From positions 1 to 64,000 of the forward strand of contig NZ_QKUF01000004.1 of the NCBI RefSeq assembly GCF_003253565.1: a DNA stretch of 64,000 nucleotides, written 5' to 3'. The DNA comes from Thermosporothrix hazakensis (GTDB lineage Bacteria; Chloroflexota; Ktedonobacteria; Ktedonobacterales; Ktedonobacteraceae). The notes below the pieces were generated by a model that worked only from the letters and a program-made list of their open reading frames with translations, did not search any database and was not told the origin of the DNA. The stretch's first letter is position 1. Each line of letters starts with the position of its first letter. This document shows positions 11,564-52,632 of the stretch, one piece after another. A program made the translations under genes and the position numbers.

Positions 11564-11585
11564 AGCATCTTCACTCACTTCCGCG

Positions 11586-12191: not shown

Positions 12192-12256
12192 TCTTTCTTC
12201 ATTCTCCTCTGTTTAACGACTCTTATTAAGAGCAAGAAGTCGTAATTCCCATCTCA

Positions 12257-12278: not shown

Positions 12279-12293
12279 CGACCTTTTTAATAA

Positions 12294-24225: not shown

Positions 24226-24389
24226 CCCCCTATCGAGAGCAACCATTTTGCACCATACTATTACATGCATCATTCTCACGTCTCCCTTGAGGAGCATCAG
24301 AAATACTGCACAAGCACTGAAGGCTGAGAGGGAAGAAGGGCCACTTGTACGCTACCGTACAGCAATCAGGTAGAAAGGAGCCCATCATT

Positions 24390-27616: not shown

Positions 27617-28648
27617 CTATACGCTCTGGCCTCTGTGCGCTTCACCCTTCTTCTTTTTCTTCCCCTGACCTTTTTCCTCTATCAGTTCTCGCTTTAACGT
27701 CTCATCATGATAGAAGATGTCCGGTAGTGGACCGGCCAGCGGATCACCAAACACGTAGAGCGAGTCCGCGCCGGGCTCTGGCTCCGTTTCAGCCTCCTCC
27801 TCAATCGCGCTCTCCTGCCCGAACAGCGTGATCAGGTCATTCTGCACGTCGAAGGGATTGGTTGTCGCAAAAGGATTCGCCCGCGTCACCTCGATTGGCT
27901 CCACATGCTTCACCTCAGGAAGCACCTCATCGTCGGACTTTTTCGCCACAGGAGGCACCGCAACTGGCTCACGTGGAGCTTCCACTTGCGGCCCTTTCCG
28001 GGGCTGTACCGCTGGCTGTGGTGAGGTGGGCTCTTCTACTTCTGCCTGAAAAGGTTTCTCCGTCAGCATATCCGCCTGCTGTTCAGAGGATACTCCAGGC
28101 TTCTCCTGGACCTCCGGCTCTTCTGCCTCAGTCTCAAAGGGATTCTCTGCCAGCATATCAACCACCATCGACTTCGGCGCTGACTCCTGCGCTTGCGGTT
28201 CCGGGATTGGCTCCTTGAACTCCGCAATTGGCTCCGGTACTTTGAACTCAGGGATCGGCTCCTTGAACTCAGGGACAGCCTGTGGCGCTCCCTGCTCTGG
28301 CGCAGGCGGTTGTTTTCGGAAAGCGCCAAAGCCACTGACCTTTACGCTCAGACGCGGGATAGCAAGCTCACGGTACACACGCCAGACCCACAGGCCCCAC
28401 GCCGCCAGTAAGAACAGCGATTGAATACACAGCAGCACCAGCGGCAGAATCAGGCTTTCCTGATGCTTTTCCCATAAGGGTTGAAAGTTCATCAGGCACT
28501 GTACCAGCAAGGCCCAGGTTGTGGGTGGCCAGCCACCCGCAAGCCAGAACATCAGTCCCCCTGTGACGAGAAGCAGAAGCCAGCGCGTGACGACAGGCAG
28601 ATAGGGAATAGAATAAGTGCGTTTCGTCTGCACAATCTCACTCCTCAT
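27617..28648 (-). CDS. Membrane protein with Pro/Glu-rich NPF-motif tail, last gene of T4SS operon
   Basis: 343 residues. Two N-terminal transmembrane helices (about 20-38 and 68-88) are followed by a long disordered cytoplasmic tail. The tail has PEFKEPIPEF-like repeats and several NPF or KPF motifs (AENPFETE, TEKPFQAE, RANPFATTNPFD), then a Lys-rich end (KGQGKKKKKGE). The start codon overlaps the virB4-like stop (ATGA), so the two are translationally coupled. The tail could tether cytoplasmic ATPases or substrates to the secretion channel. That role is an inference from position and composition; no known family was recognised. Confidence 0.65.
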   Translation of the reverse strand: MRSEIVQTKRTYSIPYLPVVTRWLLLLVTGGLMFWLAGGWPPTTWALLVQCLMNFQPLWEKHQESLILPLVLLCIQSLFLLAAWGLWVWRVYRELAIPRLSVKVSGFGAFRKQPPAPEQGAPQAVPEFKEPIPEFKVPEPIAEFKEPIPEPQAQESAPKSMVVDMLAENPFETEAEEPEVQEKPGVSSEQQADMLTEKPFQAEVEEPTSPQPAVQPRKGPQVEAPREPVAVPPVAKKSDDEVLPEVKHVEPIEVTRANPFATTNPFDVQNDLITLFGQESAIEEEAETEPEPGADSLYVFGDPLAGPLPDIFYHDETLKRELIEEKGQGKKKKKGEAHRGQSV

Positions 28649-31281
28649 GCCCGCTCAGGATGCTTCTTGCTATAGCCGTTCAAGGGGGGCTCCAGATCTT
28701 CTAGCTCTAACTCTTCCAGCAACGCTTCAGTGCTTCGCACAGATGAGGCCAGGGTCAACGTCGTGTTCGCCATCTCGGCCTCTTTCGGCGACGCGACCAC
28801 CTCCATCGGCGTCCAGCTCTTGGTAGAGAACAGCCCTTCACCGCGCCGAGCTGCCAGCAAGAAGTTTCGCTGTCCCGGGCTCAGGCGGAACGTGCGCATC
28901 ACCGACTCAATCGTTGATGAGTCCTGCTTCATTAAGAACTTCATAGTTGCCATTGCCAGGATCGTGCGCCCCTCCTCTGACCCCAGGAAGTCATCAGAGT
29001 TCTGCGTTGTACACCAGAGACCGCCACCATATTTACGAATACGCCGCGCAAATGCCGCCAGGAACTTCGCCCCCTGCTGGAACTGCATCAACAGCCATGC
29101 CTCGTCAATCAGAATGATCGAGTGGCGTTGTAACACACGTTCCTGTCGTGCCTGGCGCAGCTTCGTCCAGAGGAACTCGGTGATCAGGAAGAGCCCGACC
29201 GGCTTGAGCGCGTCGTTCAACTCCCGGATGTTAAAGTCCACAAAGCGATTGTCCAGAATCACGCGGGTTCGGCTCGGGAAGAGATGCAGATAGCGCTCCA
29301 GGCGGTCACTCAGCCCGAACGTATCTTCGCCGACGCCAAAGCGCTTATCACCACGCGATGCGCTCGACATAATGACAAAGAATTCCTGCATATTGGGCGG
29401 CGTGCGATGGTGCGTGCGCGGATCCATCGTAATGCCGCGGTTCTCGTATGTCTTGATCAGACAGCGATAGAGGAACGCCTTCTCTTTCTGTGAAAGTATC
29501 CCTTCATCCGACAGCAGCAACTCAAAGAACGTGATCAGGTTCAGGATCTTCTCGCGGAAGAAGTTGCCTTCATCGGTGCCCTCATCCTCCTCCAGCGCAT
29601 CGGGCCGCCCGTAGAGATCGAACGGGTTCAACTGGAGCGACTCCGATGAGAGCCGCACATATTGGCCGTGTACCCGTTCGCACAGGTTGTTGTATTCCGC
29701 CTCCGGGTCGATCACGTAGACGTTACAGGTAGGCAGCAGGCGGCACGAGACCGTTTTCAGGAAGAAGCTCTTCCCGGCACCCGACTTGGCGAACACGACC
29801 ATATTCGCGTTTTCCAGCTCCTGGCTGTTAAAGGGATTCAGGATCACAAGGCTGCCATTGGGATGCACACCGAACATCACGCCGCTATCCATACTGATAT
29901 CACTGCCGGTAAAGGGATAGAACGTCGCCGCCGAGCTGGTGCCAAATAGCCGGGCACGCCCTAGCTGGTTATCGCCATCCGGCAGACAACTGAGCAGGCC
30001 AGCATGATGCTGCCAGTGCGCGGGCAATGCTCGAAAGTCGAGGCTTCTGATTGCGGCAACCAGGCGGTTATTGCGCTCGCTCAACTCCCGGCGGGTGCGT
30101 CCGCGCACCTGCACAAAGAGCGACAGCGAGAAGATACGCTCATCTCCGCGTGCCAGGCGCTCCCGCAAGCCCTCAATATCCTGCAATGCGATCGCTGCGC
30201 TTGGATCGGGCGCCTTCCCCTGACGCTGCGAGGCCAGCACCGAACCGCGAAACTCCGTCGCTTTGCGTCCCAGGCGGCTCGTGACCTGCTGTGGTGGCAG
30301 AGGCGAGATATGCAGGCTGAAGTCAACGTTTGGCTCATCCACCTGGATAATCGCATCCAGCCAGCCCGGATACGCGCTTCGGGGATAGTTGACAAATACC
30401 AGCGTTCGCACAAACTCATGCCCGAGCTCGCCCGCGATGCGCACTGCCCACGGAAAGACCTCGATACTGCTTGGCGCGATCAGCTCGGGAACACTGACAA
30501 AATCGGGCGTTTTCTGTTTCTTTGTCTTTTGCTTCTTCTTTTTTCGCTTCTTGTCTGGCTTCTCTTCTTCCAGCAGATAATCTTCATCTTTTTCCAGTAA
30601 TGTCTGAAGATCAGGCTTCTCTCCCTGCGGTTCCTTCGCTGAGACCATCAGGTTGTTGGCACCCGCCATCAGGTTATCAGAGATCGGGAACAGCTTCGCC
30701 TCTTCTGAGAGAAACGAGGATTGATACAAATGTAAAATCTCTTTATCATTCAGCCGGTGTCCTGACAACCCAAGTCGTTCAAGCTGGCGCAGCAGCTCAT
30801 CACAGCGCAGTTGAAGCTGTGTCTGAGCATTGCGCAGCGCCTCCTCTTTGTTGCGCGTCATCGACTGGTCAGCCGGAATCACAATATAGAAGTTTCGCTT
30901 AATCAGCGCCCGGCGCGAGGCCAGTTGCCGCACGAAATGCGCATGATCGCGCATCACATCCGACAATTCATCATCAATTTTATCCAGCGAGTTCAAATAT
31001 TCATCTAGACGATATGGCAGATTTTTAATCAAAATTTGGACAGGGAAGGACAACCCGTTCAAGAAGCCCTTGAAGCCTTCTATCAGAGCATCCTGATCCT
31101 CTTCAGACATCAAAGAGAAATTTAACGTCGTCAGCTTAATAATGGAGCGATACTCATACATTTTTCGCCCGAAATTCAGGCAAACGACCCCATCTACAAT
31201 TTCTCGCACTCGGACAAAGCTTTTGAGCACGCTTCCAATGCCGCCAAACATTTGACTTGGTGTACGAGGCAACGTAAACAT
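28645..31281 (-). CDS. virB4: VirB4/TraE-type secretion ATPase
   Basis: 878 residues from an ATG with AAAGGAG before it. This is the motor conserved in all type IV secretion systems, bound at the cytoplasmic base of the channel. The N-terminal domain is the usual VirB4 adapter (VREIVDGVVCLNFGRKMYEYRSIIKL). The RecA-like domain has Walker A FAKSGAGKSFFLKT (about 497-510) and Walker B SIILIDEAWLLM (about 718-730), then the TQNSDDFLGSEEG motif. It sits after prgI and the virB2-like gene in the same leftward operon, the usual order in monoderm conjugation and export systems. A Lys-rich insert (KKRKKKKQKTKKQKT) near residue 245 is unusual. Confidence 0.92.
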   Translation of the reverse strand: MFTLPRTPSQMFGGIGSVLKSFVRVREIVDGVVCLNFGRKMYEYRSIIKLTTLNFSLMSEEDQDALIEGFKGFLNGLSFPVQILIKNLPYRLDEYLNSLDKIDDELSDVMRDHAHFVRQLASRRALIKRNFYIVIPADQSMTRNKEEALRNAQTQLQLRCDELLRQLERLGLSGHRLNDKEILHLYQSSFLSEEAKLFPISDNLMAGANNLMVSAKEPQGEKPDLQTLLEKDEDYLLEEEKPDKKRKKKKQKTKKQKTPDFVSVPELIAPSSIEVFPWAVRIAGELGHEFVRTLVFVNYPRSAYPGWLDAIIQVDEPNVDFSLHISPLPPQQVTSRLGRKATEFRGSVLASQRQGKAPDPSAAIALQDIEGLRERLARGDERIFSLSLFVQVRGRTRRELSERNNRLVAAIRSLDFRALPAHWQHHAGLLSCLPDGDNQLGRARLFGTSSAATFYPFTGSDISMDSGVMFGVHPNGSLVILNPFNSQELENANMVVFAKSGAGKSFFLKTVSCRLLPTCNVYVIDPEAEYNNLCERVHGQYVRLSSESLQLNPFDLYGRPDALEEDEGTDEGNFFREKILNLITFFELLLSDEGILSQKEKAFLYRCLIKTYENRGITMDPRTHHRTPPNMQEFFVIMSSASRGDKRFGVGEDTFGLSDRLERYLHLFPSRTRVILDNRFVDFNIRELNDALKPVGLFLITEFLWTKLRQARQERVLQRHSIILIDEAWLLMQFQQGAKFLAAFARRIRKYGGGLWCTTQNSDDFLGSEEGRTILAMATMKFLMKQDSSTIESVMRTFRLSPGQRNFLLAARRGEGLFSTKSWTPMEVVASPKEAEMANTTLTLASSVRSTEALLEELELEDLEPPLNGYSKKHPERA

Positions 31282-31319: not shown

Positions 31320-31712
31320 TCATTCTAGAAAATCTTCCTCCTCGTTTGGCTGCTGCTTCGGGCTCTTTTTCTTCGCCTTCGAGGGCTTCTCATCCTCCGC
31401 CACATCCTCAGAGGGCCTATAAAGATAGAGGCGTGGCATCGAAACAAAGAGCAACCAGCACATAAACCACTCTTCCATTGGGCGTTCTGCGATCGGGAGC
31501 AATGCGATGATAAGAGAAAGCAGCACAACCAGCCCGGCCAGGATGGCGCATGTAATCATCCACCACAGGTCAGGAAGCAGCTCGCTACAATTCACCCACA
31601 GCGAATACCCGCCAACAACTCCACAGACAATAATCAACAGTTCCCGCCCGGTACGCCCGAAGATAATGGTTGGCTGCTCATTGAGAAAAGTTGGAAACTC
31701 CTCTTTCTTCAT
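31320..31712 (-). CDS. prgI: PrgI-family (VirB3-like) T4SS inner-membrane protein
   Basis: 130 residues from an ATG with AAAGGAGG just before it. Two transmembrane helices (LLIIVCGVVGGYSLWV and ILAGLVVLLSLIIALLPI) follow the typical N-terminal motif FPTFLNEQPTIIFGRTGRELL, where PrgI proteins normally have a similar short conserved segment. PrgI is the monoderm counterpart of VirB3 and helps VirB4 dock on the membrane complex. The C-terminal tail is Lys/Glu-rich (KAKKKSPKQQPNEEED). The gene lies between the virB2-like and virB4-like genes, as in other such systems. Confidence 0.85.
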   Translation of the reverse strand: MKKEEFPTFLNEQPTIIFGRTGRELLIIVCGVVGGYSLWVNCSELLPDLWWMITCAILAGLVVLLSLIIALLPIAERPMEEWFMCWLLFVSMPRLYLYRPSEDVAEDEKPSKAKKKSPKQQPNEEEDFLE

Positions 31713-31733: not shown

Positions 31734-32117
31734 TTATTTCGTTGTATACTCGAACGCATTGGTTATGAGTTTATCCAGCGTGTTTGCCATGACCACAATC
31801 ACCAGGCCAACTACCGCAGCCGTCAGCGCCATATTTGACATGGCAACGCGCCGCTCACTTCCAAACGCGGTCATGCGCATAATACCGGCAACGGCCACCC
31901 CGATCCCAAAGACGATACCCCCAAGCGTGGTAAGAAAGCTCCTGATATTGCTGGCAAAATTTTCAATATCCTTATACGCGTCGCCTGTGGCCTTCTTGGG
32001 TGCTGCCAACGGAGCCAGCACCGTCAGCGCTGCATCGCTTACATGTGCAAATACAGTATGCAGATGAGCAACAATGATACCGAGATCTATGCTATGAAGA
32101 AGCTGTAGCAACATCAC
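31734..32117 (-). CDS. VirB2/TrbC-like small membrane protein (candidate pilin)
   Basis: 127 residues; GTG at 32117 or ATG three bases on, with AAAGGAG before both. The layout is VirB2-like: an N-terminal hydrophobic part, a hydrophilic stretch (KKATGDAYKDIENF) and two hydrophobic helices (LTTLGGIVFGIGVAVAGIMRM, ALTAAVVGLVIVVMANTLDKLI) joined by a short basic loop. VirB2 proteins polymerise into the pilus or line the channel. Family assignment rests on length, topology and position directly upstream of prgI and virB4. Confidence 0.7.
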   Translation of the reverse strand: MMLLQLLHSIDLGIIVAHLHTVFAHVSDAALTVLAPLAAPKKATGDAYKDIENFASNIRSFLTTLGGIVFGIGVAVAGIMRMTAFGSERRVAMSNMALTAAVVGLVIVVMANTLDKLITNAFEYTTK

Positions 32118-32181: not shown

Positions 32182-33504
32182 CTATACTCTGCGCCCGTAA
32201 TCATCCATTCCTGCAAGAATCACAGCTAAATAATTTCGCGTCTCAACAGGCAGACAGGGGCGGAAATTCTCGCCACAGCGCCTGACTGCGCTTGCCACAC
32301 CACCTCCTCCGGCGTTATATGCGGCCAGCGCCTTTGCATAATTGCCCCCATACTCTTTGAGTTGGTTCGCCATCAGCTTCGCACCGCCACAGAGGGCCTG
32401 CCCGGGATCATGCGGATCAATTCCCATTCCAGCAGCAGTAGCGGGCATAAACTGCGCGATTCCAATGGCCCCCACCGGTGATACCGCATCCGGGTTAAAG
32501 CCGCTCTCCTGCTTGATCTGGCGCAAATAGATATCTGCATTGATCCCCATCTGTTGGGCCGCCTTTCGCGCCATCTCGACATATTCCGACCGGGGCAACT
32601 CATGAGACACGTGTTTCACCTTCGAGCAATCGATATTGCCCCCGCCCGCTGTAAAGAGTGGATTTCCCCATTGCTTACTTAATTGCTCATTATGGATATA
32701 GCCCATAACCCGGTAATCAGGTCCCCAATCCTGAACAAGATAGCCACTGGAGCGCAACGGCCACTTGAGCAGCGGCGCACCACCAATCTCAGTATTGCTT
32801 GTTGCGTTGGCCTGCGCCATATAGAGCGCCCCATCCTTGCCGTTTTTGGGCGGCTCAACGCCCACTACCATCAGGATATGTCCATACAGTCCATGATCCA
32901 TCACCACGAGATCACCAATTGAGGGCATACCTTCCCCGTTGTTGATATACTTCCAGCCGGCCTGCTTGAATGCCTGCTGATCTTCCGCACTCCAGTAGTC
33001 GATAGCGTTCCCGCCAGCAGGCAGCGGATGGTGCGCAAGATCATACACTGTATGGATGAACATCGCACATTGCAACCCAATTCCGCCCTGACTTTTGGGC
33101 AGGGCATGGGGACAAATTGACCCGTGACATTGCTGCTTCCAGTACTTGATAACGGGCTGCATGATCGAGTCATTAAGGTCATACTCATTCCATGAGCCCT
33201 TCTCATCCTTTTTGAGATGGCGCACAATCGCCAGCGCGACCAGCACCGGATTCTTTGATTGCAACATCGCCAGGTCATCGCCAAGCATCGCTGTTTGCGT
33301 GGTCGCCGGCGCATAATAGGCCGGAGCCATAAACTTGAGCCACCAGGAACCGATATTGCCAAGCAGCAACAGGCCGACCGAGATCACCGCCAGCAATTGC
33401 AACCCGAGTGCCGACGCAATGCCCCACAAAGAGCCAAGCAAGCCACCCATCGCGCCCCCGTGCAGGCCGCCCGCTACAAGTCCTTTTGCATATTTGCTGC
33501 TCAT
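32182..33504 (-). CDS. VirB1-like cell-wall hydrolase: CHAP-like plus lytic transglycosylase
   Basis: 440 residues from an ATG with AAAGGAG before it. One N-terminal transmembrane helix (about 30-50) anchors the protein with the enzymes outside. Residues about 85-270 look like a CHAP amidase/endopeptidase: Cys in LQCAMFIHTVYDL and His in LYGHILMVVGV. Residues about 320-435 are an SLT lytic transglycosylase: RQIKQESGFNPDAVS with the catalytic Glu, GAIGIAQFMPATA, AKALAAYNAGGGGV. Cutting peptidoglycan makes room for the secretion channel. Two-enzyme fusions of this sort are common in monoderm type IV systems. Confidence 0.85.
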   Translation of the reverse strand: MSSKYAKGLVAGGLHGGAMGGLLGSLWGIASALGLQLLAVISVGLLLLGNIGSWWLKFMAPAYYAPATTQTAMLGDDLAMLQSKNPVLVALAIVRHLKKDEKGSWNEYDLNDSIMQPVIKYWKQQCHGSICPHALPKSQGGIGLQCAMFIHTVYDLAHHPLPAGGNAIDYWSAEDQQAFKQAGWKYINNGEGMPSIGDLVVMDHGLYGHILMVVGVEPPKNGKDGALYMAQANATSNTEIGGAPLLKWPLRSSGYLVQDWGPDYRVMGYIHNEQLSKQWGNPLFTAGGGNIDCSKVKHVSHELPRSEYVEMARKAAQQMGINADIYLRQIKQESGFNPDAVSPVGAIGIAQFMPATAAGMGIDPHDPGQALCGGAKLMANQLKEYGGNYAKALAAYNAGGGGVASAVRRCGENFRPCLPVETRNYLAVILAGMDDYGRRV

Positions 33505-33519: not shown

Positions 33520-35325
33520 TTAGCGAGCTGCCGCCAGGCCAGAAATAGCGCCGCTGATCGCCTGAAGTCCCATTTGCAGTTCGGCCATCTGCATTGCCAT
33601 TGTCGTGCCCACCACCTGCCCCATCATCTGCCCTGCCTCAACCATGGTGCGCATCGGAGCCGTGCCAAGCAACGCCGGAATCCGGATGATAAACCAGAGA
33701 CAGGCGACACACATCAGGTCTACCCAGACATTCTCATCCAGGCCCCCAACCGTGTTGCTCGGCGTTCCACCAGCAAAGTGCATGACGTTTCCGAGCATCA
33801 CCTGCGTGATAATCAGGGCGACCACCATCACGAATTGCACCATCAACGTTGAGAGAAAGCCGCTCAGCCAGAGCCGGGTGACACCCTGCCCGACCTTACC
33901 CGGTAGCGCCCAGCATGCCAGCCCGATCGGTGCAGTAATCACGTACAGGTTGATAAAGAAGAGGCGTATAATCATTTGTGCCAGCAGCATCAGAGCAAGC
34001 AGCTTTCGCACAACGTGAAGGCCTTTTCCCAACTCTTGCAGGTTCTTAAAGAGATCCTCGAATCTCAAATTATCGGGCACAAGCTGAAAGCTCTTGCTGC
34101 TGGTTGCATCGTCCTGGCACGAATAGTAGAGTGTATCGCCAAACGAATTCACCTGCCGTGGCTCGCCCTGCACCAGCGAATTCATATACTGGCGCACACG
34201 GTACTCGCCACCGCCCTCCTGCTCACCCATCATCCGCTTGATATCTTTGGGGATATCCGTGCCATATGTATCCCAGGCATTGTCAACCAGTTGATCCCAT
34301 TCATCGAAATGGCGATACCAGGCCAGCGTATCGGTTGTATCTTTCAGCATCTCCATGTCGTTCTCAAGTTGCGGAAAGATCGCATCCAACTGCTTGCGTG
34401 TCGCGGCAGGGACTTTCTTCCCATCGTACTCATAAAGCAGCTCGACACGCCGATGCAGGATACTGTAGACGCCCCCCTCTTTGTAGTTGCCGTCGTCATC
34501 AAAGAGCACCCAGCGCCCATATTGATCGAAACTGGTCTTACTCCAGGTGCAGGACTTCCCCTTCATCTTTTGCAAGGTCTCATCAGTATTCGGAGCATGC
34601 CAGAGCTTGGCGGCCTGCTCGGGCGTCATACTCTTGTACTTATCTTTTCCCTCTTTCTCAAAATGGTCCTTGTCTTCCTCGTTATAGGTGGGGAACAGAA
34701 CATGCAGCTCCATCGTCTTCTCATCGCCGGTACCAAAACCGGAGCCAGACCGTTGGATCGAGTTTGAATACTCGGCAACGGTATAGATCCCGCCGGTCAG
34801 CGAGTTCTGAAGATCGACCAGCACGGTAATAAAGAAGAGGCTGACATGAGCTGCGATCAGGGCCAGCAGAATGCCCGGCAACTCCTCGACCGCCTTCGCA
34901 AAGCGGAAGGTGATCCCCGCGAAAATAACCCGGATGCCGGTCATGATGATTGCTACAACTGCCAGTCCATCGACAACCGTTATCATTGCCGTCCAGAGCG
35001 AGCGAATGTTCTGGTTTCCAACGGTACTTTCGGGCGGCGTATAGAAAAAGAGCAGGTTCTGCTTCGCTATAGGATTCTGGATTTTGGGATTCTCGTTTTT
35101 ATAAGCAGACACATAGAGATGCCCCGCAAGACAGGATTGTTTCAGCTCGTCTGGCAACTCCTGGCACTCCTCAGCGGTTGCCTGAGGACTCTGAGTCGCC
35201 GCCTGTACATGCTGTTGAGCGGGCAAAGCAAGGAGCGTTCCGGCAAGAGCCAGCGCGATCAGCAATACAGTCGCGATATCGAACGCTCGCAGTATCTTTC
35301 GAGCAGTCTGAGTTTTTCGCTTCAT
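33520..35325 (-). CDS. VirB6/TrbL-like polytopic membrane protein, paralog 1
   Basis: 601 residues from the ATG at 35323-35325. The protein has a signal-like first helix, PKIQNPIAKQNLLFFYTPPE, two helices (with GIRVIFAGITFRFAKAVEELPG), a long variable hydrophilic part of about 240 residues, and then a conserved block of about five helices (VIRLFFINLYVITAPIGLACWALPGK, VQFVMVVALIITQVMLG, LWFIIRIPALLGTAPMRTMVEAGQMM). This is the topology of VirB6/TrbL channel proteins. Two paralogs precede it in the operon with the same blocks but unrelated middles. Probably part of the inner-membrane pore. Confidence 0.75.
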   Translation of the reverse strand: MKRKTQTARKILRAFDIATVLLIALALAGTLLALPAQQHVQAATQSPQATAEECQELPDELKQSCLAGHLYVSAYKNENPKIQNPIAKQNLLFFYTPPESTVGNQNIRSLWTAMITVVDGLAVVAIIMTGIRVIFAGITFRFAKAVEELPGILLALIAAHVSLFFITVLVDLQNSLTGGIYTVAEYSNSIQRSGSGFGTGDEKTMELHVLFPTYNEEDKDHFEKEGKDKYKSMTPEQAAKLWHAPNTDETLQKMKGKSCTWSKTSFDQYGRWVLFDDDGNYKEGGVYSILHRRVELLYEYDGKKVPAATRKQLDAIFPQLENDMEMLKDTTDTLAWYRHFDEWDQLVDNAWDTYGTDIPKDIKRMMGEQEGGGEYRVRQYMNSLVQGEPRQVNSFGDTLYYSCQDDATSSKSFQLVPDNLRFEDLFKNLQELGKGLHVVRKLLALMLLAQMIIRLFFINLYVITAPIGLACWALPGKVGQGVTRLWLSGFLSTLMVQFVMVVALIITQVMLGNVMHFAGGTPSNTVGGLDENVWVDLMCVACLWFIIRIPALLGTAPMRTMVEAGQMMGQVVGTTMAMQMAELQMGLQAISGAISGLAAAR

Positions 35326-35398
35326 AAGAAATATAACCCCCTCGTACCGCCCTATCACTTATAGTAAAAAAGTTCTCGTTCCCTGTATAGGGAGAGAG

Positions 35399-35405
35399 AG
35401 GGACA
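35399..35405 (-). promoter_or_regulatory. TGTCCCT element, copy c
   Basis: On the minus strand AATTTGTCCCTCTCTCTCCC lies about 75 bases before the paralog 1 start, between two genes of the operon, and may mark an internal promoter. A short palindrome CCCT-GTAT-AGGG (35381-35392) is next to it. Confidence 0.4.
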
Positions 35406-35433
35406 AATTGACCTATCCCTTTCGCATACAGAC

Positions 35434-37176
35434 CTAGCGCACAAACGCGAGTCCGGCTGAGACCAGCGCCGATACGCCCTGTACAATCATCTGGAATTGC
35501 TGGATCTGCATCATCACGGTCGCGCCCACTACCTGCGTTACCATCTGCCCGGCTGAGACCATCGTGCGCATCGGGGCAGTCCCGAGCAGCGACGGAATGC
35601 GGATGATAAACCAGATACAGGCAATGCGCATCAGGTCGAACCAGACATCCGACGAGAGACCACCCACCGGCGTTCCCGGCGTGGCACTGGCGAAATCCGA
35701 GACGACGTTAAAGATCGCCTGTAACACGATCAAGGCAACCACCATCAAGAACTGCACAAAAACCGTTGAGAGAAACCCCTTCATCCATTCCAACGTGAGC
35801 GATTGCCCGATGCGGCCAGGCAAGGCCCAGCAGCCAATACCAAGCGGAGCCAGCACAATATAGAGATTGATAAAGAAGAGGCGCACCACCATCTGTACCA
35901 GCAGGATCAAGGTCAGCACCTTCACGATCATCTTGACCCCTTTTCCCAGATCCTGCAGGTTCTTGAACAGATCAGTAAAGTTCAGATCTGTCTCAAAGAG
36001 GCCTTTCTGCTCGACCGGCTTCGGTGTCTGGCAGGTAAAAGTAATGATATCCCCCCGCTTGCCCGGCATCGACTCAATATAGGTGCCGTTGGACTTGAAC
36101 AGCAGCGACATGGTCAATTTCACCCGGTTCGCATGGTCGGCGTTCACGTCCTGGCGCTCATAGTTCAGATACTTCTTTTCATAGCCCGATAGCTCCTCAT
36201 CAAACTTCAACCAATCAGTATGCCAGCGCAGAGCGTCATTCTCAATCTGGTTGACATCGGTCTCGATCTGGCTGACCATCTGATGCAGACGCGCAATCAC
36301 CGAGGCAGGCACATTCTCCCCCAGTTCCTCAATGGATTCAGCCCGCATCGAGATATCGAAGGCGATGTTCCCATCTTCGGGCTTGCCCTTCTTGCCAAAC
36401 AGGTTCTTGCGGCTCTCGACATCGAAATTGATCTCTTTGGCCTTACACGTCCAATCCTTCTCGAAGTGGCTCAGATCGCTCTGCGTCAACGACTTACCGT
36501 CTGGTGCCCCATATATTTTCCCGTCGGGTCCACCCCATGCCGACGCCACCGCAAAGGGATCTGTAAGCAACTTCTTCTCAAACTCGCTCTCTTTACCGGG
36601 ATCACCCGTCGGGAAGAAAACATGCAGCTTCTCCTCCTTTGTCTTGGACTTGCCATACTTGACTGGCCCCTCAATGTTGATCTCCTTCGCAGAGAGGTAG
36701 AGCGAGTGCGTCAGCATATTCCCGAGCCCGATCGCCGACGTCATAAAGGTCAGGCTGATATGGGCCACAATCAGCGCCAGCAGCACGCCGGGTAATGTCT
36801 CGACCGCATCAGCAAAACGGAAGACGCTTCCCACCAGCATCACGCGAATTCCGTTTAACATGATGGAAATGACGAGGAACATGTCCACCAGGGCCAGCAC
36901 CCCGCCCCATAGGAGCCGTACCGTCGGATTATCAACCGTGATGTCGTACGGTGTGAAAAAGAACAGCGGGTTATCGGGAAAGGGGTTCTGTATCTTGCTA
37001 TCGTTTCCGGTATAGGAGCTTGACGAGACCGACGTTCCTTCCAGACAGGCCTTCGTTGCCTTTCCCTCGCTACAGGGATCCGCGGCCTTCGCGGGCGTCG
37101 TCAGGCAGAAGAGCGCGAACAGCCCATGCAAGCACAACAGCAGTAGTGCCAGGCGCAACCAGCGTCGTTTCTTCAT
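35434..37176 (-). CDS. VirB6/TrbL-like polytopic membrane protein, paralog 2
   Basis: 580 residues from the ATG at 37174-37176, which has GGGGAGG 8 bases before it; a longer frame upstream overlaps the previous gene. A cleavable signal (LALLLLCLHGLFALFCLTTPAKAAD) is followed by KIQNPFPDNPLFFFTPYDIT, then GIRVMLVGSVFRFADAVETLPGVLL and, after a hydrophilic variable stretch of about 230 residues, the shared C-terminal block (VVRLFFINLYIVLAPLGIGCWALPGR, FIIRIPSLLGTAPMRTMVSAGQM). It belongs to the same operon and is a clear duplicate of the genes on each side. The variable part should face the outside or the periplasm-like wall zone. Confidence 0.75.
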   Translation of the reverse strand: MKKRRWLRLALLLLCLHGLFALFCLTTPAKAADPCSEGKATKACLEGTSVSSSSYTGNDSKIQNPFPDNPLFFFTPYDITVDNPTVRLLWGGVLALVDMFLVISIMLNGIRVMLVGSVFRFADAVETLPGVLLALIVAHISLTFMTSAIGLGNMLTHSLYLSAKEINIEGPVKYGKSKTKEEKLHVFFPTGDPGKESEFEKKLLTDPFAVASAWGGPDGKIYGAPDGKSLTQSDLSHFEKDWTCKAKEINFDVESRKNLFGKKGKPEDGNIAFDISMRAESIEELGENVPASVIARLHQMVSQIETDVNQIENDALRWHTDWLKFDEELSGYEKKYLNYERQDVNADHANRVKLTMSLLFKSNGTYIESMPGKRGDIITFTCQTPKPVEQKGLFETDLNFTDLFKNLQDLGKGVKMIVKVLTLILLVQMVVRLFFINLYIVLAPLGIGCWALPGRIGQSLTLEWMKGFLSTVFVQFLMVVALIVLQAIFNVVSDFASATPGTPVGGLSSDVWFDLMRIACIWFIIRIPSLLGTAPMRTMVSAGQMVTQVVGATVMMQIQQFQMIVQGVSALVSAGLAFVR

Positions 37177-37189
37177 CGTTGCGCCTCCC

Positions 37190-38569
37190 CTATCGTGCGA
37201 ATCGTGCAAGCGGTAGCAGACCTGCCCCCGCCTGGAACACCATCTGCGCCTGCGTAAACTGTGAGACAATGGTTGTGCTTACCACCTGCGCCATCATCTG
37301 ACCACTCTCAACCATCGTACGCATGGGAGCCGTGCCCAGTAGCCCCGGAATCCGAATGATAAACCAGAGACAGCACACGTGAATCAGATCAACCAGTGTA
37401 TTCACCGGGAGCCCCCCCGGACCGGTCATGCCATCGTCACCAGAAGACTTGAGCGGCGTCGCCACAACTTGCAGGACCGCGCCAAGCATAATCTGCGTGA
37501 CGATCAGAGCCAGCACCATCACAAACTGCACCAGCGCCGTCGAAATAAAGCCCTTGAGCCATAGCGAGGTAACCCCCTGCCCGCTTCGGCCCGGTAAGGC
37601 CCAACACGCGATAGCCAGCGGCGCGAACACGATATAGAGGTTAATAAAGAAGAGACGTATCACCATCTGAATCAGCAGCATCAGCGCCAGCACCTGAATA
37701 ATCAAGGGCAGAGCATCACCGAGCTTTTGCAGATTATCGAAGAGATTGGTAAAATTCAGATCCTCAGGCACAAGCCGGAAATTCGTCATCATGCTGTCGC
37801 CAGGGATCGGGCATTTCTTGAAGATCTGGGTGTAATCATGCACGTAGAGGATGCGATCCGGCTCGCAGCGATTCTTAAAGCTCTGTGGCAGCTTGTCATA
37901 GGTATCACGATCCCTGCCAGCCGCGCCATTCGCGGAGATCTGGAGATCCTTCCATTCCTCGCGCCGAAAGTCGGTCTGTACCAGTTTGTCGTTCGCCCAG
38001 GTATAGGCATGATTGACCAGAACATTATTCAGGCCGATAAACAGCGAAATAAAGGTGAGACTGACGTGCACCACGATCAGGGAGAGCAGCACACCGGGAG
38101 ACTCTTCAATCGCCTTGCTGAACTTGAACACCGTGCCCGCGATCATCATGCGTAAACCATGCATCATGAATACGAGCACAAGGAAAATATCTACAATTGC
38201 CAGCATCGCTCCCCAGAGCAACCGCACAATCTCATTGTCGACGGTGTAGCGATAGGGCGTGTAGAAAAAGAGGGCACTGTTGTCGTCAATCGGGTTCTGA
38301 ATCTTCTTCCCGCCGCCCTTATAATCTTGCTCCAGGCAGTCGCCCGCCTGCACCAGCTCCGCAGGGCAAGCATGTGGGGCAAGGACAGCCCCCACCTGCA
38401 TCAAGCTCTGAGGCCGCTGCTGTAGCGTCTCGATTGCGTGCAGCATCATATCTGGTCGGCACACGATCAGCAGAAGAGAGAGCACGATCAGGGCCACCAG
38501 GGTGATAAAAATATCAAGAAAAGAGAGCCACGAGCGCTTGCGTGGCCTTATCAGAAACAGGTCTCTCAT
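37190..38569 (-). CDS. VirB6/TrbL-like polytopic membrane protein, paralog 3
   Basis: 459 residues from the ATG at 38567-38569 (AGAGGAAG before it), first gene of the leftward secretion operon. Same plan as the next two genes: KKIQNPIDDNSALFFYTPYR, GLRMMIAGTVFKFSKAIEESPGVLL, a shorter variable region of about 110 residues, then VIRLFFINLYIVFAPLAIACWALPGR and FIIRIPGLLGTAPMRTMVESGQMM. The gap to paralog 2 is 13 bases. It is the shortest copy, mainly because its central part is reduced. Probable inner-membrane channel component of the type IV system. Confidence 0.75.
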   Translation of the reverse strand: MRDLFLIRPRKRSWLSFLDIFITLVALIVLSLLLIVCRPDMMLHAIETLQQRPQSLMQVGAVLAPHACPAELVQAGDCLEQDYKGGGKKIQNPIDDNSALFFYTPYRYTVDNEIVRLLWGAMLAIVDIFLVLVFMMHGLRMMIAGTVFKFSKAIEESPGVLLSLIVVHVSLTFISLFIGLNNVLVNHAYTWANDKLVQTDFRREEWKDLQISANGAAGRDRDTYDKLPQSFKNRCEPDRILYVHDYTQIFKKCPIPGDSMMTNFRLVPEDLNFTNLFDNLQKLGDALPLIIQVLALMLLIQMVIRLFFINLYIVFAPLAIACWALPGRSGQGVTSLWLKGFISTALVQFVMVLALIVTQIMLGAVLQVVATPLKSSGDDGMTGPGGLPVNTLVDLIHVCCLWFIIRIPGLLGTAPMRTMVESGQMMAQVVSTTIVSQFTQAQMVFQAGAGLLPLARFAR

Positions 38570-38660: not shown

Positions 38661-38721
38661 GGAAAGCAACCGGCCCCTTATGGTACGCTCAGAAGCAAGC
38701 CACTACAGAAAGGTGCACCTT

Positions 38722-41700
38722 ATGATTCCAGGGTTTGACGTCGAATCACTGAACAAACTGGGAAAACTGATCGCAGGCCTCGAACGCTACAATCTGGAAG
38801 GTGCGTCACCCGAACCATTCGACCCGGCAGACCTGCTTGAAGAGAGCGAGCAGGCTTTCTTTCATATTCACGGCCTGGGGAATTTCTGGAAAGCGCCCCA
38901 CGAGTTTATTCACCGTCTGGTTGATCTGGTCGTTAGCGCCCACCATCAGCGCCATACCGACCTCACCTTTCTCCTTCTGGGAACGCAACAACAGATCGCA
39001 CTCTATTTGTCGCTAGGCAGCGAAAAAGCGACGCGCAGCGCACTGGAAGGGCTCTTTCCGGGCATTTCCTTTTCTCCGGCCTCGCCAAAAGATCTGCTTC
39101 ACAGGTTACGGGGACATCTGCGCGTTCAGGGAGTCGTTACCGGCATCCCGAGCCGCCGCGCCTTCACCCCCAACCATCTCAAAGAAGATGAGCAACCACA
39201 CAGCCCCCCGGAGCGCACGCCACTTGAGCGTGTCATTCGTGGGATGGATGGCGCGACCTGGGCCTACATCGTTCAGGCGCACCCCAGGCCCCGACAAAAG
39301 GTGATCGAGGAGCGCATGCGCACCATTGACCTGCTGACGCAGATCACCACACGCTCACGGGTGCAGTGGTCATCAACCAGACAGGATTCGCAGCAAGTCA
39401 CCAGCGTTGAATCTGGCGGACAGAGCAAGAGCTTTAGCGGCGACATGGTGAACTACCGGGCGCAATACCTGCATAAATTGCTTGAACACGAGCTCGCTCG
39501 CCTTGATGAGTCCTCGGCTACCGGTCAGTGGATCGTGCGTACCTACTTTGGAGCCAGCGACCAGGAAGACGCACAGCGTCTCAGCTCGCTCCTGCTTGGC
39601 ACGCTTGCCGGAGCCGATTCACGCCCGGAGCCGCTGCGAGTCTCACTCTGCGAAAAGTTCGGCGCACCGCTGGAAAGCTTCCATACCTTCCTGTCATCGC
39701 AGGAGCTTGCCACGCTGATTCAGCTTCCGCGCGAGGAGTTCCCGGGCTATGCGCTGCACGATCACGTCACCTTCGACGTTGATTTTCAGGCACAGACCGG
39801 CGTCTCTCTGCCCCTGGGTATGATCCTGCAACAACAGAAAAAGACCCATGTCACCTACGATATCAACATCGATGCCTTAAGCAAGCATGCCGTCATCGTT
39901 GGTGTCACGGGCAGCGGCAAGACCACGACCGTCATGAACCTGCTTGACCATCTCACAGGGGCTCGCAAGCCCTTTCTGGTCATCGAGCCCGCGAAAACGG
40001 AGTACCGCGCTCTCAAAAATGCGCAGGCTGACCGCGCCGATGTACGGGTCTTTACGCTTGGGAACGAGATGCTCGCCCCGTTCCGCCTCAATCCCTTCGA
40101 GTTTGAGACGACCGACGAACCGGGCAGCGGCTCGCTCATGGCACACATCGACTTTCTGAAAGCCGTTTTTACCGCCGCCTTCCCGATGTATGCGCCATTG
40201 CCGCAAATCATCGAAACGGCCATGTATGAGATCTATGAAGAGAAGGGATGGGATATCACCAGCAGCACAAACCGGCGGCTCTCCAACTGGGCCGACCGCC
40301 ATCGCTACCCGATCTTCCCAACTCTTGCCGATCTCGATTACAAGACCCAGGAGGTCGCGGACCGGCTCCGCTACAATCCCGAAGCCGACGCGCATATCAA
40401 GGCATCACTGAAGGCGCGGATTGGCTCGCTCCGTATCGGGGCAAAGGGCCTGATGCTCGACACCGCCCGCAGCTATCCAATGCGTGCCCTGCTCTCGCTG
40501 CCCACAATTCTCGAACTGGAGAGCATCGGCAATGATGAAGAGAAAACGTTCCTGATGGGCCTGCTGCTGGCTCGCATCTACGAATACCGGCGGCTACAGG
40601 CAAGCAGCGGTGCGGAAAATGAGCTGACCGGACGCACACTGCAACATCTGATCGTCATCGAAGAGGCACACCGCCTGCTTCAGAATACCGGTCCCGTCAT
40701 GCCGACCAACCCGGATTCTGCCAACCCGCGCGCACAGGCAGTCGAGGTCTTCACAAACATGCTGGCCGAGGTTCGTGCCTACGGTCAGGGCATCCTCGTC
40801 GCAGAGCAGATTCCGAGCAAGCTTGCGCCCGACGTGCTGAAAAACACCAATCTCAAAATCGTGCACCGTCTGATTGCGCAGGATGACCGCCAGAGTATCG
40901 GACACACCATGAACCTGAATGAGGCACAACAGACCCACCTCGGGATTCTGCCTCCGGGAACGGCGGCCGTCTATGCCGAAGGGGCCGACCACGCCTATCT
41001 TGTGCGTATGGACAACTACAAACGGCAGCTTGAGCCGCTGCGAGATCCCGCCCTCAAGCAGGACAGCCGCTCATATGCGCGCGTCTCGGCCTATCATGCA
41101 ATTCTCGATTTCGACGCGTACAAGATCCCACGGACCTCGATCGGGAGCCCGCCGCCCATGCTCTATCAGCTTGCAGGCAAGCTCTTTGAGACGACACAGA
41201 AAAAGGGGTTCTGGGCTCGCTTGCTCCTGAGCATCCTTGCCAACCCTGCCGAAACGCTCAACGTCCTGTTCCAGCTTGAGGAGAGCATTGAGGCCGAAAC
41301 CTCATCGCTTGCGCCCTCGCTGCATGACGTGCTCTTCCGCCTGCTGATCGTGCGCGGCTGCTTTGAACTGCTCCAGCAACGAGGCGCACAGCTTGGCTGG
41401 ACCTACCCGCAAACCGATGAGTTGCGCCGCCAGCTCACAAGCGGTCTGCTCGCGCTCTACCGTTCGCAGCAGCTCGCCAACGAGGACCCCGACAAGGAAG
41501 GCCGCCAGGAGATTCGCCGGGAACTCGACTCCGCAGAGCAACATCTGAATCGCTTCCTGCAAGCCTATCTTGAACTGACACAGCGGAGACGCGGTCCGTT
41601 CCGTGGATGCGCCATCTGTCCGGCAAAATGCCTCTACCGACGCGATGTCCAGACACTTTTAGAGCCACGCGACCGGGAATGGATCGGAGGCGAGTTGACC

Positions 41701-41985
41701 GCTGCGACCTACGAGACGGAGGAAGAGCGCTATCAGGCTGCCTTTACCAGTGCTCAGATACTTGTGAAGGGCTGGCTGGCCGGCGGCAACGAAGAGATTC
41801 TCCCCTGGGTCAGCTATTGTACCGTGCTGCACACGATCGAGGGCAGTGATCTGAGCGGCTATGAGCGCATAGTCACCGCCGACGCCTTCCAGCGCTACAT
41901 CTCGGCGCAAACTGCCGCAAACACCGAAGAGGCAGAAGAACAGCCAGAATGGCCCGATTCGGAACTTGCGCTCACCAACGAGTAG
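38722..41985 (+). CDS. HerA/VirB4-superfamily ATPase (DUF87-like)
   Basis: 1087 residues from the ATG at 38722 (AAAGGTG 8 bases before it). Residues 1-370 are an uncharacterised N-terminal region. The HerA-like motor follows: Walker A VIVGVTGSGKTTT (about 390-402), the VIEPAKTEYRAL motif, Walker B HLIVIEEAHRLL (about 641-652), and the GQGILVAEQIPSKL and sensor segments. The C-terminal third is helical, with a CAICPAKC motif (about residue 970) that could bind zinc or an iron-sulfur cluster. Such hexameric ATPases move DNA or proteins. It is first in a rightward operon opposite the secretion operon and may feed substrates to it. Confidence 0.85.
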   Translation: MIPGFDVESLNKLGKLIAGLERYNLEGASPEPFDPADLLEESEQAFFHIHGLGNFWKAPHEFIHRLVDLVVSAHHQRHTDLTFLLLGTQQQIALYLSLGSEKATRSALEGLFPGISFSPASPKDLLHRLRGHLRVQGVVTGIPSRRAFTPNHLKEDEQPHSPPERTPLERVIRGMDGATWAYIVQAHPRPRQKVIEERMRTIDLLTQITTRSRVQWSSTRQDSQQVTSVESGGQSKSFSGDMVNYRAQYLHKLLEHELARLDESSATGQWIVRTYFGASDQEDAQRLSSLLLGTLAGADSRPEPLRVSLCEKFGAPLESFHTFLSSQELATLIQLPREEFPGYALHDHVTFDVDFQAQTGVSLPLGMILQQQKKTHVTYDINIDALSKHAVIVGVTGSGKTTTVMNLLDHLTGARKPFLVIEPAKTEYRALKNAQADRADVRVFTLGNEMLAPFRLNPFEFETTDEPGSGSLMAHIDFLKAVFTAAFPMYAPLPQIIETAMYEIYEEKGWDITSSTNRRLSNWADRHRYPIFPTLADLDYKTQEVADRLRYNPEADAHIKASLKARIGSLRIGAKGLMLDTARSYPMRALLSLPTILELESIGNDEEKTFLMGLLLARIYEYRRLQASSGAENELTGRTLQHLIVIEEAHRLLQNTGPVMPTNPDSANPRAQAVEVFTNMLAEVRAYGQGILVAEQIPSKLAPDVLKNTNLKIVHRLIAQDDRQSIGHTMNLNEAQQTHLGILPPGTAAVYAEGADHAYLVRMDNYKRQLEPLRDPALKQDSRSYARVSAYHAILDFDAYKIPRTSIGSPPPMLYQLAGKLFETTQKKGFWARLLLSILANPAETLNVLFQLEESIEAETSSLAPSLHDVLFRLLIVRGCFELLQQRGAQLGWTYPQTDELRRQLTSGLLALYRSQQLANEDPDKEGRQEIRRELDSAEQHLNRFLQAYLELTQRRRGPFRGCAICPAKCLYRRDVQTLLEPRDREWIGGELTAATYETEEERYQAAFTSAQILVKGWLAGGNEEILPWVSYCTVLHTIEGSDLSGYERIVTADAFQRYISAQTAANTEEAEEQPEWPDSELALTNE

Positions 41986-44573: not shown

Positions 44574-44698
44574 AACAACCGGATACGGTACAGAAGAAAG
44601 AGCCCTTGCTGACCTTGTGCCTCTGGCTACTTATCATCCTCTGGCTGGCCTGCATGGGCTCATTCGCCTTGCTTCCTTATCTGCTTCCGGACCTTTAA
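44570..44698 (+). CDS. 42-residue single-pass membrane protein
   Basis: Short gene not found by length-limited searches. The ATG at 44570 overlaps the methyltransferase stop (ATGA) and has GAAAGGAG 5 bases upstream. The product has a Lys/Gln-rich N-terminus (MKQPDTVQKKEP) and one hydrophobic helix (LCLWLLIILWLACMGSFALL), ending YLLPDL. Translational coupling and a strong ribosome site make it a real gene. The role is unknown, perhaps a small subunit of the membrane complex. Its last four bases overlap the end of the convergent VirD4-like gene. Confidence 0.7.
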   Translation: MKQPDTVQKKEPLLTLCLWLLIILWLACMGSFALLPYLLPDL

Positions 44699-47520
44699 GC
44701 CCCTTCCTCAGAGGGGCTTTCCTCTTCTTCGCCAGCCGCAACCAGTGCCTCGGCCTTCTTTTTGCCTCCTTTGCCACGTTTCCGGCGCTTGCGCTTCTTT
44801 TCCACTGCTGCTTCTTCCTGCGGCTCCATGTCTTCAGCAACCGGCTCCGTTACTGGCTCCGTGGCCGGGGGAAGCAGAATCACAGGCGACTCAACAGCTT
44901 CAGGCTGGCGAGCAGGTTCACTCGGCTGTCTGGCCTTCTTCTTCTTCTCGGGCTGCACAGGAGCCATTCGAATACCGCGCACCATCGCCTCGCGTAGCAT
45001 CTCATCAACCAGTTCAACCGAGGAGGCATAGCGAACGCGGCTCCGCGTCCGGATGCTCTCCGCCTGCTCAACATTTCGTATATCGAGTGGCGTGACCTTC
45101 AGCGAGAAGGTGGGCTGGCGCTTCTGCAACGCCGAGAGCCTGACATAGCAGGTATGCATATCAAGGTTCAGGATGTCATCGCGCTCCACACCAAGCTCGC
45201 GATACATCGTCTCGGCATCCTGTGCCGACAGATTGAAGATAACAAGCTGCTTGACGTTCGCCAGAACGGTTGGCAATAGCAACGGATCGAGGTTCTGCAA
45301 ATACTCAAGCGACTGTGTGGCCAGAAAGAAGGTCGCACCATACTTACGCAGCTCCGCCAGGGCACCATAATCAACACCCGCGAGTGTCTGGAATTCGTCA
45401 AGGATGATCGGATAGCGTACCCGCTCTATCTCTTGTTTGATGCCTTGCTCCTCAAGCGTAATCTGGAAGAGGCCAAGCATGCTCGCCCCGAGCAGGGCCG
45501 CGACATCGGCTCCCACAACGCCCTTCGCCAGCTTAAAGAGAATAATCTTGCGCTCCTCAATCATCTGTGTGAAGTTGATGGTCGAGACAGGCTGCCCGAT
45601 AATCCGCCGGGCGATCACGCTTTCAAACTTCGCGACCTTTGTGATAACGGGGTTAATCACCTCGCGCTGCTGCATCAGCGTGAGCGGCTCATAGTACTCG
45701 CGCCACCAGCGATGCAGGTAATCATCATCAATCTGCTGTAGAATCGCATGGCAGAAGTTCTCATTGGTCAGAATCGGCAACACATCGAGCAGTGTATATT
45801 GCTGACGCGGCCCTTCGAGCGGATCGCGGGCTACCAGCACGCGATTTGCCTCAAAGAGCGTGCGCAGGCTCATCTCGAAGGCATTTTCCATCCGTGGGCC
45901 CCAACTCGTCGCCCAGATATGCGCCAGTGTTTTGAGCAGGTCAGAGATTGCTTTATCACGTCCCCTGCCAAGCGTCACATCCAGCGGATTCAGGCCCACA
46001 GCAGCATCAGGGTCAGAGAGGTCGATAAAGACAACATCTTCAGCGCGGTATTCCGGCACGATATGCAGAATATGCTCACACAGGTCTCCATGCGGATCGA
46101 TGACCATCAGCCCGCCTAGCTTCATCGCATCATGCGCGATATGCTCCATAAACGTGCTTTTGCCCTCACCCGATTTACCGGCAATCAGGGTATGCTGCGT
46201 GAAGAACGTGGAATCAAGCCCGAAGGGAAGCCGATAGCCGCCATGCTCCGAGTAGCCAACCGGACGCAGATGCGCCACCTGGCGGGCCAGGTCCGGCGGA
46301 AGCAACATGGTGCGGGCGCGTCGGTGCTCGACCAATGAGAGTTCAGGAAGCGCGTCGGCCTGTGGTAAATGCCAGAGCGTCGCGAGCGCATCGACCGTCA
46401 GCAGGTGCTGAGAGCGCGCTACATCCCGATGCCAGCGTTGAAACAGGCGACCGGGCCGCCTGATTCGCTTCGGTTGAAAATAGGCACCATTCGCCCGATC
46501 AAACTGGCGATAGGCTGCGATCAGGCGTAGCAGCATATCCTTCCGTTCCCGCGTCTCTTTCCATCGCTCCTGCAAGCGCTTGAGCAAGCCACCATCGCCC
46601 AGATAACTGGCCTGTTTCGGTCCGATCACATAAAGGCGGAGCCGCGCTTTATACGCCATGCGCGAGACACGCTGAGCAACCATCCGGGTGTCATAGGCGC
46701 GTCGCTCTTTCAGCTTCCTCTGAATAAAGGCGCCCACGCCCCAGAACAGGAGAATCGCACAGAAGATGCCGCCTATCAACAGGATCAACTGAAGCACCTG
46801 CTCGGACGAGAGCTGAGGAACGCGACCAAGCAGCAAGTCAGTGAGCATATCCCAGGTCCACCCGGGAATCAACGGACGCATTGCCAGAAAGAGCAGCAAC
46901 AGCAGGCCAAGCGCTATGATAATCGGCGTACTGATTACAGCCTCACGGTTCAGCCTCATCTCGGCCATCTCGACCTGCATGGCGCGCCGTTCCTTGTCCA
47001 GCGGGCTTTCAATCGCCTTGCGGGCATCGCGGCGAGACCAGGCAGGAGGTGCCGGAACCAGCGCAAGCTGAGAGATCACACGCGTGTGTTCCGGGAGCCT
47101 GCTTAACGCCGCCAGCAGCCCTTGCAGTGGATCAAGATCCTCCTGCCGCTCCTGTTCCTGCTGCCATGTGCGTAGCGGCATGTATGTCTGACCGCCAGTG
47201 ACCAGCTCAACCGCAGTTACCGCTTCATAGGGCTCCAGCACAAACGGGTCCTCATGCGGATACAGGGGGCGCACTTCCATCTGCGGATACTGAGAGCGCA
47301 ACACCGCTTCTGCGTGGTCAAGCGCGGTCCGGGTCGTGGCTCGCAGAATAAAGCTTCGACGTTCGGCGGTCCCGGCAAGTTCCAGCGAGAGCGGATGCTT
47401 TTTATCGAGCACAAGGCTCTGCATGGCGGCTTCCAGCGCAACCTGCTCCTTCTTCAACCGGGACGGCGGAATCACGAGCAGCGCCAGTACCGCCTCATTC
47501 TGTTGTGGTTCCAGCATCAT
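44695..47520 (-). CDS. VirD4/TraG-like type IV coupling ATPase
   Basis: 941 residues from the ATG at 47518-47520; ATG at 47517 is also possible. The coupling protein brings substrates to the type IV channel. Residues about 1-200 form a soluble N-terminal domain, then two transmembrane helices (ISTPIIIALGLLLLLFLAM and ILLIGGIFCAILLFWGVG). The motor domain has Walker A TLIAGKSGEGKSTFM (about 441-455) and Walker B PIILDEFQTLAG (about 701-712). Between them lies MVIDPHGDLCEHIL, and later FFLATQSLEYL, as in the TraG/TraD family. Its tail is disordered, Lys/Arg-rich (KKRKRRKRGKGGKKK) and acidic at the very end, likely a substrate or DNA contact. It faces the HerA operon. Confidence 0.85.
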   Translation of the reverse strand: MMLEPQQNEAVLALLVIPPSRLKKEQVALEAAMQSLVLDKKHPLSLELAGTAERRSFILRATTRTALDHAEAVLRSQYPQMEVRPLYPHEDPFVLEPYEAVTAVELVTGGQTYMPLRTWQQEQERQEDLDPLQGLLAALSRLPEHTRVISQLALVPAPPAWSRRDARKAIESPLDKERRAMQVEMAEMRLNREAVISTPIIIALGLLLLLFLAMRPLIPGWTWDMLTDLLLGRVPQLSSEQVLQLILLIGGIFCAILLFWGVGAFIQRKLKERRAYDTRMVAQRVSRMAYKARLRLYVIGPKQASYLGDGGLLKRLQERWKETRERKDMLLRLIAAYRQFDRANGAYFQPKRIRRPGRLFQRWHRDVARSQHLLTVDALATLWHLPQADALPELSLVEHRRARTMLLPPDLARQVAHLRPVGYSEHGGYRLPFGLDSTFFTQHTLIAGKSGEGKSTFMEHIAHDAMKLGGLMVIDPHGDLCEHILHIVPEYRAEDVVFIDLSDPDAAVGLNPLDVTLGRGRDKAISDLLKTLAHIWATSWGPRMENAFEMSLRTLFEANRVLVARDPLEGPRQQYTLLDVLPILTNENFCHAILQQIDDDYLHRWWREYYEPLTLMQQREVINPVITKVAKFESVIARRIIGQPVSTINFTQMIEERKIILFKLAKGVVGADVAALLGASMLGLFQITLEEQGIKQEIERVRYPIILDEFQTLAGVDYGALAELRKYGATFFLATQSLEYLQNLDPLLLPTVLANVKQLVIFNLSAQDAETMYRELGVERDDILNLDMHTCYVRLSALQKRQPTFSLKVTPLDIRNVEQAESIRTRSRVRYASSVELVDEMLREAMVRGIRMAPVQPEKKKKARQPSEPARQPEAVESPVILLPPATEPVTEPVAEDMEPQEEAAVEKKRKRRKRGKGGKKKAEALVAAGEEEESPSEEGA

Positions 47521-47651
47521 CGTAGCATACTCTTCCTTCAATGGCGTGAACGGATTTCCTGAACTGGTGGCTCACGAGCGGTCACCCCTTGAACAGGGCC
47601 CGCTTCCAACGATACAATGAGAGCAGATACCCGGAAAGAAAGTGACCCACC

Positions 47652-49722: not shown

Positions 49723-49792
49723 ACGCCATCCCTTCTCTGATGCTCTTCTTTCAAGCATACCGTCCTTGCTCTTCAGAAACAGGAAGGTTCAC

Positions 49793-52621: not shown

Positions 52622-52632
52622 GGAGAAATAGT

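Follow-up and report, generated by a model that had tools for sequence, protein, structure and literature searches.

The window analyzed here, a stretch of 64,000 nucleotides, belongs to the 7.28 Mb genome of a soil bacterium of the Ktedonobacterales (Thermosporothrix hazakensis) and carries three VirB6/TrbL-like gene copies in tandem on the chromosome. All three lie on the minus strand and are transcribed in the order S, B, A: the operon starts with the short paralog S (positions 37190–38569, 459 amino acids), followed by the two long paralogs B (35434–37176, 580 amino acids) and A (33520–35325, 601 amino acids). In the comparisons given below B represents the class with an exchanged middle and A the class with a conserved one. 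Common to the three proteins are the motif KIQNP(x)LFF[YF]TP, a helix pair with G[IL]RV/M and a C-terminal block with LLGTAPMRTMV. Pairwise identity is 50–57% in the N block (from KIQNP) and 54–61% in the C block, and BLASTP E-values are 5e-131 for A/B and 5e-71 for A/S. As both blocks are shared, the alignments place it beyond doubt that S, A and B are paralogs. A first-pass annotation of this DNA had correctly located the three tandem genes and recognized the three common parts, and the lengths it gave for the middle regions are about right.

Downstream, the same strand carries a VirB1-like wall hydrolase with CHAP and SLT transglycosylase domains (32182–33504; Pfam PF01464 and PF05257 above cut-off), a VirB2-like pilin (31734–32117; PF18895 and PF04956 above cut-off), a VirB3/PrgI-like protein (31320–31712; PF12666 with E 4e-5 slightly below cut-off, and a syntenic ortholog with 62% identity), a VirB4 ATPase (28645–31281; PF19044, and NCBIfam conju_CD1110 with E 2.7e-84) and a 343-residue protein with two hydrophobic helices at its N-terminus and a tail that is acidic and rich in proline (27617–28648). 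VirB4 orthologs adjoining VirB6 genes are 67–80% identical. VirB4, VirB3 (just below the cut-off), VirB2, the wall hydrolase and the VirB6 genes are all found in a single operon, and by its predicted gene content the locus is a chromosomal type IV secretion system (T4SS) of the monoderm type, headed by three VirB6/TrbL-like genes. The hydrolase and its orthologs (loci L040–L044, 413 to 549 amino acids) are mosaic, with a conserved N-terminal CHAP part, a varying C-terminal part and in some cases a second CHAP-like stretch.

Divergent from the operon, on the plus strand, lies a HerA/FtsK-like ATPase of 1101 amino acids (38680–41985). It is a conserved neighbor with a 64% ortholog at the same place in relatives, and it bears weak similarity to the model of the archaeal DNA-transfer ATPase CedD (E 1e-17). 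A candidate coupling ATPase of the TrwB/VirD4 type (44695–47541, minus strand; PF10412 above cut-off) is also present near the same T4SS in Ktedonospora formicarum (G032) and in a further genome (G026). Transfer of DNA to a partner is putative, as both relaxase families tested are absent: PF03432 was not found in the window's own genome and PF08751 not in five genomes. The T4SS region is flanked by serine/threonine kinase genes (24345–25565 and 48103–49758), and about 12 kb from the operon a gene for a fusion of a RecQ-like helicase with a ComF-like phosphoribosyltransferase domain (50579–53631) directly precedes dprA.

Searched directly against Pfam and NCBIfam, the S, A and B proteins gave no match. 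Neither PF04610 nor PF19597 detected them, which may reflect limited sensitivity of these models, since intermediates make the connection. A profile built from 20 proteins retrieves short Chloroflexota proteins with E-values of 1e-12 to 3e-22, and four out of five of these match PF19597 (TrbL_4) above cut-off; two of the four also pass the cut-off of PF04610, one only marginally. Through these intermediates S, A and B are, on profile evidence, homologous to the TrbL/VirB6 membrane core. They differ from the TrbL_4 and TrbL families (PF19597, PF04610) by an added domain of about 200 residues. A PDB sequence search, with the whole protein and with the insert alone, found no match. The C-terminal membrane block of the B model aligns with VirB6 of R388 (8rtd_L, Z 8.7; 7o3v_H, Z 8.5; identity at most 16%), but these matches stand among unrelated helical bundles of equal Z with Foldseek E > 1, which places them at the noise level of such bundles. 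No significant Foldseek match to the B model was obtained, and the insert has no nameable fold.

The middle regions had been described as unrelated in the first-pass annotation, which holds for S and fails for A versus B. The inserts of A (34114–34698) and B (36028–36642; residues 179–383), both on the minus strand, are about 200 residues long and lie between the predicted transmembrane helices TM3 and TM4. They are 24% identical; their local alignment scores 93, where shuffled sequences average 33 (z = 11), and the BLASTP alignment covers both middles end to end. An alignment of 12 A- and B-type middles contains 14 invariant columns, including a C...C pair, among them W28, C58, D66, R70, W132, GD and C196 in the numbering of the B segment. 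Judged by these alignments the A and B middles are homologous. The S middle of about 60 residues (37790–37990, edges approximate, minus strand) cannot be aligned with them and showed no detectable relation to either one (z = −0.3 and −1.4); it is a shorter insert of a different kind with its own cysteine pair. In the short Chloroflexota homologs the two blocks follow each other directly, approximately 16–44 residues apart, so that the simplest reading of the middle is an insertion between TM3 and TM4 specific to this lineage.

With regard to topology, the hydrophobicity profile displays a single helix at the N-terminus behind a KKRRW-type start; two more precede the insert and several follow it. 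The N-terminus is basic and hence expected inside according to the positive-inside pattern, from which we infer that the insert lies outside the membrane. All B and nearly all A and S proteins retain one cysteine pair before KIQNP and a second one around the insert, as would be expected for disulfides outside the membrane. In the structure model of the window B protein residues 179–383 are the best-predicted part (pLDDT mostly 80–94), a compact fold with strands at both ends, and the insert is confident although overall confidence in the whole-protein model is low (pTM 0.41). The S model (mean pLDDT 55) was too poor for use.

The trio is conserved in four other Ktedonobacterales genomes, namely those of Ktedonobacter racemifer, K. 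robiniae and K. sp. SOSP1-85 along with that of Ktedonospora formicarum. In these relatives the HerA-like ATPase, S, the A/B genes, the hydrolase, pilin, VirB3 and VirB4 are syntenic, and VirB4 is 79–80% identical to that of the window. Our sample comprises five relevant genomes with one strain per species and, in most, one trio per genome. In a tree of all copies S and A form clades (support 98/95 and 95/96), each including its ortholog from the window. The window B gene is unplaced in the whole-gene tree, but in the tree of the middles alone its insert belongs to a group of all B inserts that is separate from every A insert (100/100). The gene order is S-A-B in Ktedonobacter versus S-B-A in the window. 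Of two loci in K. formicarum, one holds S with four long copies and the other S-A-B; related T4SS loci elsewhere in the family have one to four VirB6-like genes. The second block of K. formicarum (L041, G032:C8:110001-130000, positions 6106–13259) also contains a wall hydrolase; no VirB2-4 genes were found beside it, and its A gene is split into two overlapping frames (7627–8331 and 8193–9632). Another Ktedonobacterales T4SS with the same VirB4 family (L046, G023:C3, positions 6258–13523) contains a tandem of four VirB6-like genes belonging to another subfamily, in which a large exposed region between TM1 and TM2 replaces the TM3–TM4 insert and is cysteine-rich in three of the four.

In the closest pair of species, K. 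robiniae and K. sp. SOSP1-85, the A proteins are 96%, 96% and 98% identical in the N block, middle and C block, while the corresponding values for B are 94%, 33% and 97%. At the DNA level the B middles of this pair are 46% identical with saturated synonymous sites, whereas the dS of the flanks is 0.17–0.47. Over 20 kb the two genomes are mostly 90–99% identical; the B insert is the lowest stretch (55–71%), and a weaker dip to 71–89% occurs at the S middle and the S-A junction. An adjacent pair of B genes in K. formicarum has 99.7% identical DNA in the N block, 99.3% in the C block and 49.8% in the middle. For B, insert DNA in these pairs is 46–50% identical with saturated dS, and flank dS ranges from 0.01 to 0.47. 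Compared over four loci, the middle diverges approximately 1–1.5 times as much as the C block in A, approximately twice as much in S and 2.8–16.5 times as much in B.

The only pair with an unsaturated B middle is K. racemifer and K. robiniae, with a dS of 0.67 resembling that of the flanks. Here dN/dS is 0.64 in the B middle (95% interval 0.40–1.01), compared with 0.08–0.15 for its flanks and 0.06 for the A middle; the B value is not significantly above 1 and so gives no significant signal of positive selection on the insert. The B insert undergoes both fast amino-acid change and wholesale replacement. As the A middle is alignable and conserved (96%), the A insert is, by the same comparisons, free of diversification. 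The earlier proposal that an exposed part of the channel protein diversifies had been derived from the contrast among the three paralogs, which does not bear it out. Comparison of orthologs supplies the support instead, for B and not for A, with the S middle showing a weaker version of the module replacement seen in B. The immune-type selection and the hetero-oligomeric pore that were offered with the proposal are both conjectural. The observation named as refuting that proposal, middles that are alignable and conserved, is made for A, while the B middle evolves far faster than its flanks. GC3 in the relatives is mostly lower in the inserts than in the C blocks, and since this applies to A as well as to B it is no clear sign of foreign origin.

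The trees of the B insert and of its flanks are in conflict. In the tandem B pair of K. formicarum, one middle falls beside that of a different locus in this species (95/96), the other (a_5) beside the inserts of K. racemifer and K. robiniae (90/81); a tree constrained to unite the two is worse by 60 log units (AU p = 1.7e-51). For the pair K. robiniae/SOSP1-85 the conflict is weaker (AU p 0.02). The breakpoints fall just after LFFP and at YxCENDATG, i.e. at the edges of the predicted domain. From tree conflict and breakpoints we conclude that in relatives the B insert is swapped as a whole module by recombination, a mechanism absent from the earlier proposal. Regarding the mechanism, no orphan donor cassettes were found outside intact genes in nine genomes, and the window array has a single family of direct repeats, namely the shared C block. 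An inversion switch was rejected, as neither the window array nor the Ktedonospora pair has inverted repeats of at least 25 nt. A diversity-generating retroelement was excluded because of the many indels and the saturated synonymous change, unlike adenine-directed substitution without indels. The simplest mechanism would be homologous recombination in the conserved flanks, with either incoming DNA or tandem copies.

The swapping of a domain that probably faces outward suggests a recognition module. With slightly less than even confidence we favor the view that B is a channel subunit bearing an exoplasmic specificity module, which is exchanged between alleles and may serve partner or self recognition. 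A VirB6/TrbL-like subunit would have been triplicated into three fixed classes on a common membrane core, each with an insert placed outside the membrane between TM3 and TM4. The A insert would be a constant structural domain, the homologous B insert would be swapped whole between co-existing divergent alleles by recombination in conserved flanks, and the short S insert would change more weakly. S, B and A could together build one channel as a hetero-oligomer, A and S holding the shared scaffold, with the B domain as a specificity module at the channel mouth that reads the recipient cell or an exclusion-type partner protein. The S middle, which also changes, is one candidate partner for the B insert. 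In the 20 kb compared it is the only other part to vary in this manner, and a separate exclusion-like gene that co-varies with the B insert was not found there. This is the main weakness of a recognition role, for which a distant partner is possible. We regard as doubtful the more far-reaching idea that the allelic domain on one of three VirB6 proteins reassorts across species in the manner of a self/non-self system, by which cells choose their transfer or attack partners through a shared domain.

The replacement of a whole domain with an untouched membrane core would likewise fit balancing selection on a surface target, as would alleles with cross-species ancestry like a_5. The B insert could then be an exposed face bound by phages, predators or toxins of competitors, with rare alleles favored and secretion independent of the insert. 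We consider this unlikely: the equally placed A insert is strictly conserved, and viral contigs searched with the channel protein contained no relative. A dN/dS below 1 in the unsaturated pair, together with tandem copies whose homologous flanks are able to recombine, could also be taken to mean that the insert is a weakly constrained, drifting spacer merely shuffled by recombination. Yet length, cysteine pair and the 14 invariant columns are retained across very large divergence, the insert has a confidently predicted compact fold, and inserts at 33% between flanks a few percent apart are far beyond drift since the flanks split, so that this explanation is improbable to a similar degree. That the S and B inserts change together between K. 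robiniae and SOSP1-85, as interacting parts would, may point to a matching of the inserts to the cell's own secreted substrates or pilus parts, with cargo differing by strain. Here the likelihood is low, as pilin, VirB3, VirB4 and wall hydrolase are 97–98% identical between these two species and the 20 kb compared contain no variable cargo gene. Very improbable, finally, is the earlier proposal of a hetero-oligomeric pore with unrelated middles each under its own diversifying selection, which agrees with the unrelated S middle and with three classes kept together, but is refuted for the middles as a set by the homology of A and B and the conservation of A.

Returning to B as a subunit with an exchanged specificity module, exclusion systems offer, by analogy, the best precedent for a recognition role. 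We take ConG of ICEBs1 to be VirB6-like. ConG is recognized by the exclusion protein YddJ (PMC9086855), and TraG of IncC, SXT and F, a VirB6 homolog, is reported as the target of exclusion specificity, exclusion genes usually adjoining their target (PMC11493245). As in the published accounts of TraG and ConG, a membrane subunit of the mating channel would carry the specificity that tells transfer systems apart. The determining regions of F and SXT are reported to be cytoplasmic (PMC11493245), whereas the variable domain of B probably lies outside, and unlike in those systems no exclusion gene co-varies in the 20 kb neighborhood compared.

That most systems have one such gene, as the first-pass annotation stated, is valid as a general rule with an exception in the Rickettsiales, where virB6-1 to -4 are in tandem in Anaplasma phagocytophilum and five copies are described in Rickettsiaceae (PMC7648143, PMC3556328). 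There, as here, tandem VirB6 genes are located beside virB3/virB4 in one cluster, and these reports also mention exposed hydrophilic parts and strain diversity concentrated in VirB6. The variable part of the Rickettsiales proteins is, according to them, a C-terminal extension made largely of tandem repeats, whereas in our proteins the C block is conserved and a non-repetitive domain between TM3 and TM4 is exchanged as a unit, with one paralog constant and one swapped, in free-living soil Chloroflexota. Monoderm (FATA-type) and Patescibacteria T4SS are reported to share the clustering of VirB4, PrgI/VirB3, VirB2-like pilin, VirB6-like channel and wall hydrolase (PMC12102498). They differ from our locus with its several VirB6 genes, a chromosomal synteny that is stable within a family of soil bacteria and its lack of a relaxase of PF03432 (own genome) or PF08751 (five genomes).

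Tandem arrays and exclusion targets are already known, but domain swapping in one fixed member of a VirB6 trio appears to be new. Among titles and abstracts on Ktedonobacter and type IV secretion, with subscription papers outside the search, none was about such a system, and for the phylum we found almost no secretion-system work. VirB6 is among the least understood channel subunits of T4SS. The fates of the paralogs described here are distinct and conserved, with one constant, one swapped and one carrying a short insert, and for this reason a division of labor among VirB6 paralogs becomes directly testable by a single-domain swap. If the swapped domain sets specificity, it would represent an outside-facing counterpart to the exclusion determinants of TraG and ConG.
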